Source: Paracoccus fistulariae (GTDB taxonomy: Bacteria > Pseudomonadota > Alphaproteobacteria > Rhodobacterales > Rhodobacteraceae). From it: a stretch of DNA of 64,000 nt. The notes below the pieces were generated by a model, which was not told the origin of the DNA, did no database searches, and saw only the letters and a list, made by a program, of their open reading frames with translations. Of this stretch, positions 57,175 to 62,162 are shown piece by piece. Every line of letters starts with the position of its first letter. Within the stretch, counting starts at the first letter, position 1. The DNA lies in contig NZ_CP067136.1 in the NCBI RefSeq assembly GCF_028553785.1, positions 2,602,501 through 2,666,500 of the forward strand, read 5' to 3'. Position numbers and translations under genes: made by a program.

Positions 57175-57684
57175 TCAGGTCGTCACTTCACGCTTTGGCA
57201 GCACCCAGTCGGGGCGGGGGAAGTGGCAGGTGTAGCCATTCGGAAAGCGCTCCAGATAATCCTGATGCTCGGGCTCGGCCTCCCAGAAATCGCCCACAGG
57301 CTCCAGTTCGGTGACCACACGGCCCGGCCAGATGCCTGATGCGTTCACATCCGCGATCGTGTCCTCGGCCACCTGCTTCTGCTCGTCATCGACATAGTAG
57401 ATGGCCGAGCGATAGCTGGCGCCGCGGTCGTTGCCTTGTCGGTTCAGCGTTGTCGGATCGTGGATCTGGAAGAAGAACTCCAGCAGTTTCCGATAGCTGA
57501 TGATCGCTGGATCATAATTGATCTCGATGGCCTCGGCATGGTTGCCGTGATTGCGATAGGTCGCATTGGGGTGGCTGTCATCGCCGGAATAGCCGACGCG
57601 GGTCGAACTCACACCCGGCAGGCGCCGGATCAGATCCTGCATGCCCCAGAAACATCCGCCGGCCAGTACTGCACGATGGGTCAT
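57175..57684 (-). CDS. msrA: Peptide-methionine (S)-S-oxide reductase
   Basis: 169 residues from the ATG at 57684. The catalytic Cys is in [13 protein letters not shown] (residue about 11), followed by [13 protein letters not shown], the substrate-pocket [11 protein letters not shown], and [20 protein letters not shown] with SYRSAIYY. No signal peptide. Reduces the S-epimer of methionine sulfoxide. It starts one nt after the msrB stop, so the pair is one operon handling both epimers. The C-terminus lacks an obvious pair of resolving Cys. Confidence 0.95.
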
Positions 57685-57685
57685 C

Positions 57686-58126
57686 TTAGGCTCCTTCCAC
57701 CTGATCGATATAATCGCCATAGCCCTCGGCCTGCATCTGGTCCAAAGGCACGAAGCGCAGCGAGGCCGAGTTGATGCAATAGCGCAGGCCGCCCGCATCC
57801 GCAGGCCCGTCCGGGAAGACATGGCCCAGATGGCTGTCGCCATGTTTCGAGCGGACCTCGGTGCGCACCATGCCGAACGAGGCGTCACGATGCTCGGTCA
57901 CATTACCGTCGATGGGCTTGGTAAAGGCGGGCCAGCCGCAGCCGGAATTATACTTTGCCGAAGAGGCGAACAGAGGCTCGCCCGAGACGATATCGACATA
58001 GAGTCCCGGCTCGAAATGGTGGTCATATTCGCCGGTAAAGGCGCGCTCGGTGCCGTTTTCCTGCGTGACGCGGAACTGTTCGGGCGTCAGCCGGTCAAGG
58101 GCATCCTGCGATTTCTGATAGGCCAT
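57686..58126 (-). CDS. msrB: Peptide-methionine (R)-S-oxide reductase (zinc-free type)
   Basis: 146 residues from the ATG at 58126, which has GGAGAAG upstream. Conserved [17 protein letters not shown] near residue 60, [14 protein letters not shown] near 101, and the catalytic Cys in [14 protein letters not shown] near 120. The two CxxC zinc motifs of many MsrB proteins are absent ([11 protein letters not shown] and RSKHGDSH at those positions), while a Cys in SGCGWP can act in recycling. This is the non-zinc subtype. Repairs the R-epimer of methionine sulfoxide. Confidence 0.95.
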
Positions 58127-58188
58127 GATCTTCTCCACTTGTCGGATCGTCACGGCCTATATGGGGATGCGGATGCCCGGCGAAAAGG

Positions 58189-59157
58189 TCACCCGAGGTC
58201 AAGCCTTTCGCGCGCGGCCGCATATTCATCAGCCAGTTGATCGATGCGTTCGGCCGCCGGGGTGATGCCCTTGACCGCGCCGATGCCCTGACCCGATCCC
58301 CAGATCGTGCTCCAGGCCTTGGGCTTTGACGATCCCTGGCCGAAATTCATGCTGCTGGCATCGGCTGTGGCCAGTTGATCGGGGTCAAGCCCGGCATTGC
58401 GGATCGAGGGCGCCAGATAATTGCCCGACACACCGGTGAACAGCGACGAGGTCACGATATCCATGGCGTCGGAATCGACGATCATCTGCTTGTAATCCTG
58501 CGGCGCATTCGCCTCGGCCGTGGCGATGAAGGGGCTGCCGATATAGGCCAGATCCGCCCCCATTGCCTGCGCCGCCAGAACCGCGCCGCCGGTGGCGATA
58601 GAGCCTGACAGCAGCAGCGGGCCATCGAACCATTCGCGGATCTCCTGCACCAGTGCGAAGGGGGATTGCGGACCGGCATGGCCGCCGGCACCGGCTGCGA
58701 CGGCGATCAGGCCATCGGCGCCTTTCTCGATCGCCTTTCTGGCAAAGACATTGTTGATGATGTCATGCAGCGCGATCCCGCCGCAATCATGGGCAGCGGC
58801 ATTCACCTCGGTCCGCGCGCCCAGCGAGGTGATCCAGATCGGAACCTTGTGGCGGTGGCAGATCTCAAGATCCCGTTCCAGACGGGCATTGCTGCGGTGA
58901 ACGATCTGGTTGACGGCGAAAGGCGCTGCCGGCCGGTCGGGATTTTCCTGATTATGGCGGTCCAGCTCTTCGTTGATGCGGGTCAGCCAGGCTTCCAGCT
59001 GGATCGGCTCACCATCCTTTTCGCGGGCGTTCAGGGCCGGAAAGCTGCCCACGATCCCGGCCTTGCACTGGGCGATGACCAGTTCGGGGCCCGAGACGAT
59101 GAACATGGGCGAGGCCATGACGGGAATACGCAGATTTTGCAGAATTGGCGGCAGCAT
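58189..59157 (-). CDS. NAD(P)H-dependent flavin oxidoreductase / nitronate monooxygenase family
   Basis: 322 residues. FMN-binding TIM barrel with IPVMASPMFIVSGPELVIAQ at the N-terminus, GIVGSFPALNAR, APFAVNQIVHRSNARLERDL, GADGLIAVAAGAGGHAGPQS near residue 150 (the phosphate-binding glycine region with the His), and LLSGSIATGGAVLAAQAMGA near 196. Oxidises alkyl nitronates or reduces quinone-like substrates in characterised relatives; the exact activity here is open. Single gene, 62 nt after the msrB start in the same orientation, so possibly co-transcribed. Confidence 0.87.
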   Translation of the reverse strand: MLPPILQNLRIPVMASPMFIVSGPELVIAQCKAGIVGSFPALNAREKDGEPIQLEAWLTRINEELDRHNQENPDRPAAPFAVNQIVHRSNARLERDLEICHRHKVPIWITSLGARTEVNAAAHDCGGIALHDIINNVFARKAIEKGADGLIAVAAGAGGHAGPQSPFALVQEIREWFDGPLLLSGSIATGGAVLAAQAMGADLAYIGSPFIATAEANAPQDYKQMIVDSDAMDIVTSSLFTGVSGNYLAPSIRNAGLDPDQLATADASSMNFGQGSSKPKAWSTIWGSGQGIGAVKGITPAAERIDQLADEYAAARERLDLG

Positions 59158-59286: not shown

Positions 59287-60192
59287 ATGATGACCGCCGC
59301 CCGCCTGTTGACCATGTCCGCCAGTCTGTCCCTGATCGCGCTGAGCGCCAGCGCCGAAGAGGCCTCGCGCATCGCCGTGATGTCGGCCTTTCCGCCCGAA
59401 TGGGTCAGCCTGCAGCAGGATCTGCAGGGCGCCGAGACGCAAAAGATCAACGGGGTCGAATTCATCACCGGCGAGTTGGGCGGCAAGGATGTGGTGCTGT
59501 TCCTGTCCGGTGTGTCGATGGTGAATGCGGCCATGACGACGCAGCTTGCGCTGGATCATTTCAAGATCGACTCCATCGTCTTTTCCGGCATCGCAGGCGG
59601 GGTCGATCCGTCGCTGAATATCGGCGATGTGGTCGTGGCCCAGCAATGGGGCCAGTATCTGGAAACCGTCATGGGACGCGAGACGGATGAGGGCTTTGTC
59701 ATTCCCGGCTTTCTGGAATCGCCCTTTCAGAATTACGGCATGATCTTCACCCGGGCCAGCACGGTGGCCTCGGACCGGGGCGATGCGGAAACCCATTTCT
59801 GGTTCCAGTCGGATCCGAAGCTGCTTGAGGTGGCGAAAGACGTCGCCGCCGAGGTCAAGCTGGCCGAATGCAATGCCGAAAATTCCTGCCTCTCAAAGCC
59901 GCCGCAGATCCGCGTCGGCGGCAATGGCGTTTCGGGATCCTCCTTCGTCGATAACGCCGGCCTGCGCGAATGGATATTCGACACGTTCGAAGCTCAGGTC
60001 GTCGACATGGAATCGGCAGGCGTTGCGCAGGTGGCCTGGGCCAATCAGGTGCCCTTCATTGCCTTCCGGTCGCTGTCCGATCTGGCCGGGGGCGGGGATG
60101 GCGAGAATGAGATGGGCGTCTTCATGTCGCTGGCCTCGACCAATTCGGCCGAGGTGGTCAAGGCCTTTCTGGCCGCGCTGCCCGAGGAATAG
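59287..60192 (+). CDS. Exported 5'-methylthioadenosine/S-adenosylhomocysteine nucleosidase-like protein
   Basis: 301 residues. The N-terminus is a Sec signal peptide, TAARLLTMSASLSLIALSAS before AEEAS, so the enzyme acts in the periplasm, unlike the usual cytosolic MtnN. Nucleosidase features follow: RIAVMSAFPPEW, VVLFLSGVSMVNAAMTTQLA, FSGIAGGVDPSLNIGDVVVA, GNGVSGSSFVDN, VVDMESAGVAQVAW with the catalytic Glu, and AFRSLSDLAGG with the Asp. About 70 residues longer than E. coli MTAN, partly an insert with two Cys (ECNAENSCLS). Convergent with the DUF692 gene. Confidence 0.87.
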   Translation: MMTAARLLTMSASLSLIALSASAEEASRIAVMSAFPPEWVSLQQDLQGAETQKINGVEFITGELGGKDVVLFLSGVSMVNAAMTTQLALDHFKIDSIVFSGIAGGVDPSLNIGDVVVAQQWGQYLETVMGRETDEGFVIPGFLESPFQNYGMIFTRASTVASDRGDAETHFWFQSDPKLLEVAKDVAAEVKLAECNAENSCLSKPPQIRVGGNGVSGSSFVDNAGLREWIFDTFEAQVVDMESAGVAQVAWANQVPFIAFRSLSDLAGGGDGENEMGVFMSLASTNSAEVVKAFLAALPEE

Positions 60193-60195
60193 GGT

Positions 60196-61653
60196 CTAGC
60201 TTGCCCGGGGTCCGGGGGTGAAATCCGATGGGCTGAAACTGTCGGGCAGCAACTCGATCTCCCAGGCAGGGGGGCCGGGGAACGCATCGGGCATCGTGGC
60301 TATGGCAAGGGCCTCGAAGACCGGGGTCGGATTGCCGGGGAAGCTGACGACCTGCGGCTTCCCCTGACGCACGATCCGCATGAAGGCCAGATCGTAGCTG
60401 ACAAGCGACAGCAGCCAGGGATCGTCCTCGCCCTGCCGGATCAGGTAATCGGCGAAACTTTCGGCCTCCAGCGGCGCGAAAAGCCGGGGCGCCTCTGCGG
60501 TGTGGAACTGCGACAGCAGCCCGTCCACGCTTTCCCCGTCGCGCAACAGCAGATAGCGTAGCGTGCGCGGCATCGCGCGCACCAGGATCGAGCCGCGAAA
60601 GCTGCGGGCCAGACGGGCATAAAGCTTTAGCGCCGGGGCATCCTTGGGCCAGGGGTGCTGCGCAGGGTCATCCTGCCAGACCGCGCGGGTGGCGCCGTCT
60701 TCCCATTCCGCAGGGGTCTGCGCGGGTTCCGGCCGGGGCCGGTCCGGCACGTCCCGCAGCGGCGGGGCGTCCGAGAGGCTTCGGCCCGCCTGCTGCCAGA
60801 TCTCTCGCAGGGCATCCACGGTGCGGTCCAGATCTTCGGCGGGCATGCGTTCCAGAAAGGTGTCATAGACCTCGAAATTCAGCGCGCCCAGATTGGGCAG
60901 GCTCTGCACGATTTCGCGCGACATCGCGGCCAGATCCTCGGGCATCGTGCCGGAATGGGAATCCAGCCAGTAGCCATCCATCTCTTGTCCGCCCGCAAGA
61001 TGGATTTCCCAGACATGGTCCAGCGGGATCTGGGACAGGAAATCAGACATGCTGATCCGCCCGTTCCTGTCATTGCAATAGATGTTATGCAGATCCAGCA
61101 GGATGCCGCATCCCGTCTGCCGGACGATCTGCGCGACGAACTCTCCGTCGGGCATTTCAAAGTGCTTGCGGGCGAAATAGGCAACGCCGGTTTCAATCGC
61201 GACCGGGCGGCCGACGCCCTTTGCGAAACGGCGGATATTGTCGCAGACGACTGCCACGCCCTCGTCGGTTTGCAGCGGCGGCAGCAGGAAACCGGCCGCC
61301 TTATGCGGCGTGCCCGCGACCGACAGATGTTCGCTGACCCAAGGGCTGTCCAGCCGCCGCGCCACATCCTGCAGCAGCGCCAGTTGCGCCGGATGGGGCT
61401 TGCGCGTGCCGCCGATGGGCATGCCGACCGAATGGACCAGCTTGCGCTGCGGCAGATCGGCGAACATCTGAATCGCCGGGCTATATTCGAAATAAGGGCC
61501 ATCGAAGGGATCGTCGGCCAGCCACAGGGTCTGCGGCTCTATCTCCAGCACATCAAGGGCATCGGGACGGCGCTTGAGAAAGGGCCCAAGCGCCGTCGAA
61601 AAGATCATGCCGATCCCAAGCTTCGGAGCCTGGAAAGCGGCCGTATCAGCCAC
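60196..61653 (-). CDS. DUF692 (MNIO) enzyme fused to a partner-like C-terminal domain
   Basis: 485 residues with a GTG start at 61653 that overlaps the end of the upstream gene by 8 nt (GTGGCTGA). Residues about 10-290 are the DUF692 TIM barrel (relatives: MbnB, TglH, BufB). Candidate metal ligands are His74 in VHSVG, Glu108-His109 in WVSEHL, Glu154 in IETGVAYF, Asp187/His189/Asn190 in LLDLHN, His218 in EIHLAG, Asp231/His233 in DSHS, and Glu261 in NFEVYD. A Pro-rich linker (300-340) leads to residues 340-485. There LYARLARSFRG and FADYLIRQGEDDPWLLSLVS resemble the BufC/MbnC-type partner usually encoded separately. Probably modifies the coupled Cys-rich protein. Confidence 0.82.
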   Translation of the reverse strand: MADTAAFQAPKLGIGMIFSTALGPFLKRRPDALDVLEIEPQTLWLADDPFDGPYFEYSPAIQMFADLPQRKLVHSVGMPIGGTRKPHPAQLALLQDVARRLDSPWVSEHLSVAGTPHKAAGFLLPPLQTDEGVAVVCDNIRRFAKGVGRPVAIETGVAYFARKHFEMPDGEFVAQIVRQTGCGILLDLHNIYCNDRNGRISMSDFLSQIPLDHVWEIHLAGGQEMDGYWLDSHSGTMPEDLAAMSREIVQSLPNLGALNFEVYDTFLERMPAEDLDRTVDALREIWQQAGRSLSDAPPLRDVPDRPRPEPAQTPAEWEDGATRAVWQDDPAQHPWPKDAPALKLYARLARSFRGSILVRAMPRTLRYLLLRDGESVDGLLSQFHTAEAPRLFAPLEAESFADYLIRQGEDDPWLLSLVSYDLAFMRIVRQGKPQVVSFPGNPTPVFEALAIATMPDAFPGPPAWEIELLPDSFSPSDFTPGPRAS

Positions 61654-62086
61654 GGAGTCCGACGCCTTCGCGAATGGATCCCATCATTTCGTTGATCTTC
61701 AGCCTTTCATCCAGAACCAGCACCCGTTCCAGCCGGAAGCGGAAATCGCAACCCGTCGCGCAGGCGGTATGGCCGGTCAATCTCGCGACCCTGTCGATGG
61801 CGTCAAAGACATTGTCCAGCTTGCCAGCGCTGTCGGGGTTGAGATCGACCTCGACCACCTTGCGGCCCTTGCCGATCCCCTTGGATGGCACGGCGAAATC
61901 GCTGCGGAAATCCTTCTGGAAGACGATTTCGCGCTGCAATTCGAACAGGATATCGTGGCCCGAACAGCAGGCCTGACAGCCCAGATGTTCCAGAACGCTG
62001 CCGACTGCTTTCTTGAGACTTCCAATATCGGCCGCAACACTTGCCGGAAGGGAAACCCGAACCGGGTTATTCTCCTTATTAATCAT
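61646..62086 (-). CDS. Duplicated Cys/His-motif protein, candidate substrate of the DUF692 enzyme
   Basis: 146 residues; AGGAGG sits 7 nt before the ATG at 62086. No family recognised. Residues 11-60 and 80-129 align without gaps (14 of 50 identical by eye). Each copy has a short motif: GCQACCSGHD (36-45) and GHTACATGCD (105-114), followed by F-x-L-x-R. The outer Cys and His are swapped between copies, so each offers C/H-x2-C-x3-H/C. Five Cys and three His in total, no signal peptide. The gene overlaps the DUF692 start, which suggests it is the modified substrate or a metal-binding partner. A stand-alone regulatory or metal-sensing role is an alternative. Confidence 0.75.
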   Translation of the reverse strand: MINKENNPVRVSLPASVAADIGSLKKAVGSVLEHLGCQACCSGHDILFELQREIVFQKDFRSDFAVPSKGIGKGRKVVEVDLNPDSAGKLDNVFDAIDRVARLTGHTACATGCDFRFRLERVLVLDERLKINEMMGSIREGVGLRG

Positions 62087-62134: not shown

Positions 62135-62162
62135 TTATAACATGCCTCTCTTGTTCGAACAA
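62135..62162 (-). promoter_or_regulatory. Putative promoter with palindrome before the DUF692 operon
   Basis: On the minus strand TTGTTC and TTATAA are separated by 16 nt, about 50 nt before the ATG at 62086. The -35-like box is half of a perfect 12-bp palindrome, TTGTTCGAACAA (62151-62162), which could be an operator. The region is clearly more AT-rich than its surroundings. Box assignment is by eye. Confidence 0.45.

Follow-up and report, generated by a model that had tools for sequence, protein, structure and literature searches.

We describe a two-gene module in a 64,000-nucleotide stretch of the Paracoccus fistulariae genome (contig NZ_CP067136.1, positions 2,602,501 to 2,666,500; hereafter the window), in which a small Cys/His protein is encoded directly before an enzyme of the MNIO (DUF692, PF05114) superfamily. 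MNIO enzymes perform unusual Cys-based chemistry that has been studied mostly on peptides. The pairing of the two genes is genuine and reciprocal, it recurs across phyla as an enzyme-substrate candidate module, and we consider it probable that it joins a substrate with a fused MNIO that would oxidise a Cys loop of an intact intracellular protein. The features of the module, in window coordinates, are as follows.

61646..62086, minus strand: small two-domain Cys/His protein, 146 aa (open reading frame (ORF), homologues, purifying selection, linkage, literature)
61910..62083, minus strand: domain 1 of the small protein, with the canonical Cys loop (single-domain profile, E 1.6e-17; alignment)
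61952..61978, minus strand: loop 1, C37-Q-A-C40-C41-S42-G43-H44-D45 (CQACCSGHD; motif counts)
61673..61861, minus strand: domain 2 of the small protein, with an altered loop (single-domain profile, E 7.8e-6)
61745..61771, minus strand: loop 2, H106-T-A-C109-A-T-G112-C113-D114 (HTACATGCD; alignments, variant list)
61646..61653, minus strand: 8-nt gene overlap GTGGCTGA (ORF coordinates)
60196..61653, minus strand: fused MNIO enzyme, 485 aa, GTG start (PF05114, E 9.5e-43; AlphaFold2 (AF2) predicted local distance difference test (pLDDT) 92.5, predicted template modelling score (pTM) 0.90)
60781..61623, minus strand: MNIO TIM barrel, residues ~11-291 (iron ligands)
60244..60714, minus strand: C-terminal helical partner-like domain, residues ~314-470 (hhalign; AF2 secondary structure)

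The initial annotation of this DNA had proposed a test of whether homologues of the small protein always neighbour DUF692 genes; at the confirmed loci the enzyme was adjacent in 20/20. Of 43 stretches that matched a pattern in species genomes, 17 were confirmed as relatives, and the enzyme lies directly downstream in 17/17 of these; two loci from the order of the Acrocarpospora locus (L041, L042) and the window itself complete the count, and two hits from a phylum search (L024, L025), judged spurious on ORF inspection, were left out of it. No homologue lacking a DUF692 gene was seen at the loci examined, most metagenome homologues lying outside this view. From the enzyme side, the small protein was found upstream of all six MNIOs with a C-terminal extension versus 0/83 without one, in a sample of 90 loci (L045-L134, obtained via MNIO or DUF2063 models plus four plasmid hits; 89 hold an MNIO) with stretches of mostly ~1.5 kb on each side; 36 of the 90 were picked by their DUF2063 gene and were therefore bound to be BufBC-like, and of the six extension-bearing loci three belong to already sampled genomes (L100, L116, L118) and three are new (L093, L114, L115). 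Small-protein and enzyme distances correlate in a set of 16 loci (Mantel r 0.91, a value reached in 0 of 2000 permutations), although the permutation and Mantel tests leave shared ancestry partly uncontrolled. The GTG-started DUF692 gene overlaps the end of the small-protein gene by 8 nt, as initially annotated, and among 16 other loci the overlap measures 4 nt in six distant loci, 8 nt in another three and 14 nt in one further locus, an arrangement that suggests translational coupling of the two products.

Sequence comparison indicates that the small-protein gene is real and under purifying selection. At E <= 1e-3 its product has 61 homologues, including one with 98% identity to the protein of the window. 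The ratio of nonsynonymous to synonymous substitution rates (dN/dS) ranges from 0.037 to 0.046 for three close relatives and reaches 0.302 in wider pairs (7 pairs tested), comparable to that of the enzyme (0.039-0.314); homologues and low dN/dS together exclude a chance-ORF origin. The protein holds five Cys (37, 40, 41, 109 and 113) and both of the C/H motifs first noticed in it, C37-x2-C40-x3-H44 and H106-x2-C109-x3-C113. Both halves are matched (E 1.6e-17 and 7.8e-6) by a profile made solely from single-domain relatives in other bacteria, so its supposed duplication is a true one. The description as a protein built from two domains holds for the window but not as a requirement, because Actinomycetota, Bacteroidota and Gammaproteobacteria have versions with a single domain (71-86 aa); a profile built from six such relatives gave 1202 matches, of which the best 120 were listed. 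No credible family was found for the small protein in Pfam, NCBIfam, PADLOC or a PDB sequence search, the Pfam matches to WH2 (E 0.086) and SapC (E 0.27) being taken as chance. A signal peptide is likewise not apparent, as had been proposed: judged by hydrophobicity, a crude proxy used in place of a signal-peptide predictor, the top 12-residue stretch in the first 40 aa has a mean Kyte-Doolittle value of 1.25, and a mean above 2.2 was reached in 0/182 proteins (that of the window and 181 fetched). The small protein is thus probably intracellular.

The loop pattern C..C.[ST]G is present in 181/181 fetched proteins, and the canonical form C..CCSG.D occurs 205 times in them; position 3 is Ala in 182 of these 205 loops, and position 2 is Pro in 71. 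Among 118 two-loop proteins, both loops are canonical in 25, one is canonical and one altered in 92, and neither is strictly canonical in one. The third Cys is replaced even in one-domain forms (CRGCTSG in L042, CGGCTSG in L115, CPTCYSG in L093), so that the core common to every system seen is reduced to Cys, Cys and Gly at positions 1, 4 and 7, and this core (first Cys, second Cys, Gly) is kept in at least one domain per protein. The strictness of the canonical pattern, with its 205 occurrences, suggests a precise site and would also suit a protein-built cofactor, in which the modified loop serves as an active site and the small protein is itself an enzyme or sensor, an explanation to which we give little weight. 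We rate equally low the chance of a classical precursor of a ribosomally synthesised and post-translationally modified peptide (RiPP), from which a host protease would free a modified peptide for subsequent export: the one-domain forms do lie, at 71-86 aa, within the size range of RiPP precursors, but the loop is internal with conserved sequence on either side, a two-domain form with residues conserved past the loop fits a short core poorly, and no protease or exporter family was recurrent in the loci.

By its sequence the enzyme belongs to the MNIO superfamily and is a predicted O2- and iron-dependent oxidase of a peptide or protein. PF05114 (MbnB_TglH_ChrH) matches residues 72-254 (E 9.5e-43, 146.8 bits, cut-off 25), and the TIM-barrel fold comes with intact iron ligands H74, H109, E154, D187, N190, H218, D231 and H233. 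E261, which is invariant among relatives, is probably the ninth ligand; its counterpart in TglH, E258, lies at the end of a partial sequence and has no single-residue mapping in the enzyme. The enzyme had been called fused, and in the AF2 model the residues after ~292 do form a separate, confidently modelled and mostly helical domain. Compared with the DUF2063 partner this extension reaches an hhalign score of 30.8 (E 5.5e-4), the maximum over 150 permuted profiles being 22.6; in the terms used for PME-2 (MNIO partner protein type 2), it is helical in AF2 and exceeds the permutation null in hhalign. The extension is probably related to DUF2063, and since it weakly resembles the partner of BufB-type MNIOs, an MNIO and a DUF2063-type partner appear to be fused in one enzyme. 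A PDB search with the profile of the C-terminal domain gave a best E of 0.71, taken as chance, and in a fold search with the full model all matches were taken up by the barrel and were uninformative on the C-terminal domain.

The initial annotation had also raised a separate clade for this DUF692 domain, and such a clade was recovered. In an IQ-TREE analysis of 111 MNIO domains (MbnB and ApyH were left out of the trees) the fused enzymes, 25 of 25, group together with an ultrafast bootstrap (UFBoot) of 100. With a partial TglH and five ChrH-like sequences, themselves a clade (UFBoot 100), they make up a group of 31 (UFBoot 98) that stands apart from BufB-like and other sampled MNIOs and whose internal order has a support of 50. 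An IQ-TREE of 30 sequences unites ChrH-like and fused enzymes without TglH (UFBoot 99), and FastTree joins the ChrH-like sequences to the fused clade at a support of 0.776. The fused clade likely lies near ChrH on sequence grounds, in a form that differs between the trees.

These enzyme comparisons bear on a further explanation, a cytoplasmic bufferin-like metal buffer, in which loop Cys would be converted to thiooxazole-type groups by the MNIO, and Cu(I) or some other soft metal would be sequestered by the small protein. The largest known families of MNIO products bind copper via Cys-derived groups (PMC12452194, PMC13097082), the loop is rich in Cys and His, and BufB gives the best NCBIfam score of the enzyme. 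However, no NCBIfam MNIO cut-off was reached (bits/cut-off: BufB 131.5/310, HvfB 86.6/360, ApyH 85.5/400, ChrH 58.6/600, MbnB 25.2/325), with the BufB score far under its threshold, the clade is apart from BufB-like enzymes, the small protein shows no apparent signal peptide and no EGKCG, and 20 neighbour ORFs from 13 loci (9 without a Pfam match, the others various) contained no DoxX, sigma-factor or copper-transport family. We regard such a buffer as possible at best, and as less likely than the mechanism favoured below.

In the mechanism that we favour, the small protein would be the substrate of the fused MNIO, and the two genes would constitute a self-contained protein-modification module whose products would be made together via translational coupling. 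The enzyme would combine an MNIO catalytic barrel, with an iron site as in TglH, and a DUF2063-like C-terminal domain that docks the substrate, and in the cytoplasm it would oxidise the loop C-x-A-C-x-S-G (C37-G43, domain 1) of the protein in its folded state. Because the module was not seen to come with a protease, an exporter or a signal peptide, the product would remain inside the cell as an intact protein. We infer the partner role of the fused domain, the coupling, the modification, the loop as its site and the uncleaved product. As to the chemistry, a cross-link between C37 and C40 of about -4 Da would be the single most likely product, a tentative proposal made because Cys, Cys and Gly keep the CPxCGxG spacing of ChrA/DybA; a thiooxazole-type ring would come next. 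In a broader and more doubtful scenario, the module would be a sporadic, probably horizontally spread cassette, in which an MNIO with a built-in partner cross-links the two Cys of an internal C-x-A-C-x-S-G loop in a folded intracellular protein to create a protein-embedded metal, redox or catalytic site. If true, chemistry of the ChrH/DybH type would have been transferred from the tail of a peptide to a loop of a protein, with no secreted peptide.

Several observations weigh against this mechanism, beginning with the fact that the modification is itself a prediction from sequence and models. The homology of the extension to the partner is modest in score (hhalign probability 30%), falls to a probability of 7% (E 0.0049) with a smaller set, and is reflected in a Pfam DUF2063 match in just 1/16 members (E 0.11). 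A comparison of the ChrH C-terminal bundle (three ChrH-like sequences) with the extension gave an hhalign score of 9.7 versus a null mean of 10.7 and so no signal of sequence likeness, the placement of TglH relative to ChrH and the fused clade varies between trees, and positions 5 and 6 of the motif are Gly and Met/Leu in the ChrH family versus Cys and Ser here, which speaks against ChrH-type chemistry. In 6/16 loci, of Rhodobacteraceae type, the genes do not overlap and are separated by 0-3 nt. The motif counts come from a biased sample, as pattern and word searches preferentially recover the canonical loop and, of 1202 matches, the best 120 were used, domain 2 of the window protein is without two of the three loop Cys, and L093 (Bacteroidota) has a paralogue with a Cys-less loop beside its CPTCYSG protein.

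This last case suggests that the small domain may do more than offer Cys, and the Cys-less copy may be a binding-only paralogue. In the 3900 bases of L093, two small-domain ORFs (reverse complement 648-986 and 1144-1413) precede the fused enzyme, and the loop of the Cys-less paralogue reads YPDGYAG. Because the enzyme already holds a partner-like domain, the small protein could be another subunit, either a dedicated one or an iron- or electron-delivery partner, while the enzyme modifies something else; the conservation of the small domain outside the loop, the L093 paralogue and the alteration of one of the two loops in most two-domain proteins all fit such a role. The retention of C..C.[ST]G in 181/181 fetched proteins, biased as this sample is, argues against it, as do the partner-like domain already fused to the enzyme and the fact that bufferin clusters also place the substrate gene before the MNIO gene (PMC12452194). 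We see a subunit role as unlikely, somewhat more so than the metal buffer, and retain the small protein as the probable substrate.

The distribution of the family is sporadic. In the family of the window 3/295 genomes carry the small protein (centre genome counted), and the one-domain profile was found in 3/398 genomes of its phylum (its own and two judged spurious), in 3/249 genomes of the order of the Acrocarpospora locus (centre counted) and in 1/244 genomes of the phylum of the Synechococcaceae locus, namely the centre itself. From record titles we take the members to belong to Rhodobacteraceae, other Alphaproteobacteria, Gammaproteobacteria, Actinomycetota, Bacteroidota and Cyanobacteria. 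Among 355 plasmid records with an MNIO match, none covers 80% of this enzyme at one place, and no plasmid record matches the small protein at E <= 1e-3.

Across distant loci, the pair has no other recurrent neighbouring gene family. In four Rhodobacteraceae loci it is close to histidine-biosynthesis genes (named from two members), DsbD, cytochrome c, a histidine kinase and a methyltransferase are single cases, and some neighbour ORFs will not be real genes, because genes were called by greedy selection of the longest ORF. The window and P. amoyensis have a common slot of clpB, small protein, enzyme, nitronate monooxygenase, msrB and msrA, with the msrA, msrB and monooxygenase genes of the window at 57175-59157 syntenic with those beside the module in P. 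amoyensis, and L007 shares only the monooxygenase within its stretch. In P. amoyensis (L006, 6401-7857) the small protein is intact and the enzyme is broken up into ORFs of 192 and 284 aa, which may reflect a sequencing error or decay. Between enzyme and monooxygenase, the window carries a phosphorylase-superfamily (PNP_UDP_1) gene (59287-60192, plus strand), whose product has a signal-like N-terminus by eye and for which no tblastn match at E <= 1e-15 was found in L006-L022. Upstream of the module, a perfect 12-bp palindrome TTGTTCGAACAA (62151-62162) was considered as an operator, an idea dropped because it is absent from 18/18 other upstream regions and a sigma-70 scan found no promoter. 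By eye, the regions upstream of the small gene in L008, L009 and L011 have in common GCGAAAGTAAGGA and, after it, GACTACC, and L019, from another class, has a similar stretch GCAAAAGTAAGG.

With just two proteins and no separate partner gene, the module is a minimal system for mass spectrometry and structural studies, and it would allow a direct test of MNIO modification of loops inside folded proteins and of C-x-x-C-x-x-G as a recognition code common to MNIO clades.

Compared with known systems, the module shares with the bufferin/captophorin systems BufABC and HvfABC a Cys substrate gene, an MNIO and, putatively, a DUF2063 partner function, but substrates there carry EGKCG or DUF2282 with Sec signals and the partner gene is separate (PMC12452194, PMC13097082). 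The small protein shows no DUF2282 or other Pfam or NCBIfam family above cut-off and no hydrophobic N-terminus by the proxy used, the enzyme stays below the BufB equivalog cut-off (131.5 against 310 bits), and there is no separate DUF2063-RRE (RiPP recognition element) gene, the downstream gene being PNP_UDP_1 on the other strand. Outside the window, the same genome has a second MNIO (G000:C1:2208491-2209583; 353 bits to PF05114) followed by a DUF2063 gene, and this pair is bufferin-type. TglHI of 3-thiaglutamate biosynthesis provides the closest solved fold, with identical iron ligands and an RRE partner, TglI, with a helical N-terminal domain, but its target is a C-terminal Cys that has been added to a scaffold peptide, and its partner is a separate protein (PMC10880893).

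Closer parallels exist with ChrH/DybH, whose substrates carry CPxCGxG and where DybH joins two Cys in a macrocycle beside a hydantoin (-4 Da); among its relatives, one has a 34-kDa protein as substrate and a second works on an embedded motif (PMC12636315, preprint). Points of likeness are a C-terminal helical bundle, some substrates that are whole proteins, a two-Cys motif with Gly at equal spacing (CPACGMG versus CPACCSG here), most clusters without a separate partner gene (PMC12636315), and nearness in our trees. The motif is usually C-terminal in that family, although an embedded CPACGMMM is known (PMC12636315), whereas here it is internal and reads C-x-A-C-x-S-G, x mostly Cys, in place of CPxCGxG. 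The enzyme also differs in its ChrH score (58.6 bits against a cut-off of 600) and its separate clade, although ChrH-like enzymes with CPACGMG precursors (L086, L087) score under that cut-off too. The ChrA/DybA motif spacing is a lead to the chemistry and not a sign of ChrH/DybH membership.

The pairing had initially been thought undescribed, but a system with matching features, adjamnio-IV, was published in July 2025: 10 sequences of 119-146 aa with 5-6 Cys and CxxCC, encoded beside an MNIO (Antoine et al. 2025, Microb Genom, PMC12452194). With 146 aa, five Cys and C37-x2-C40-C41 the window protein fits these ranges, and it also resembles the entry in having no Sec signal, a gene just before the MNIO and no separate partner gene listed; judged by the published description, the small-protein family is almost certainly adjamnio-IV. 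As far as we found, the module is named in this catalogue and otherwise unstudied in the open-licence literature, where the name appeared in a single paper and no functional study was found. In the accessible part of the paper, adjamnio-IV is covered by a sentence, a table row and a footnote, with nothing on duplication, one-domain forms, a fused domain or mechanism. The one-domain forms, the fused partner-like domain, the reciprocity of the pairing and the likeness to the ChrA motif are new beyond that entry and extend what was a brief listing to a defined family that spans phyla and has a testable core motif.
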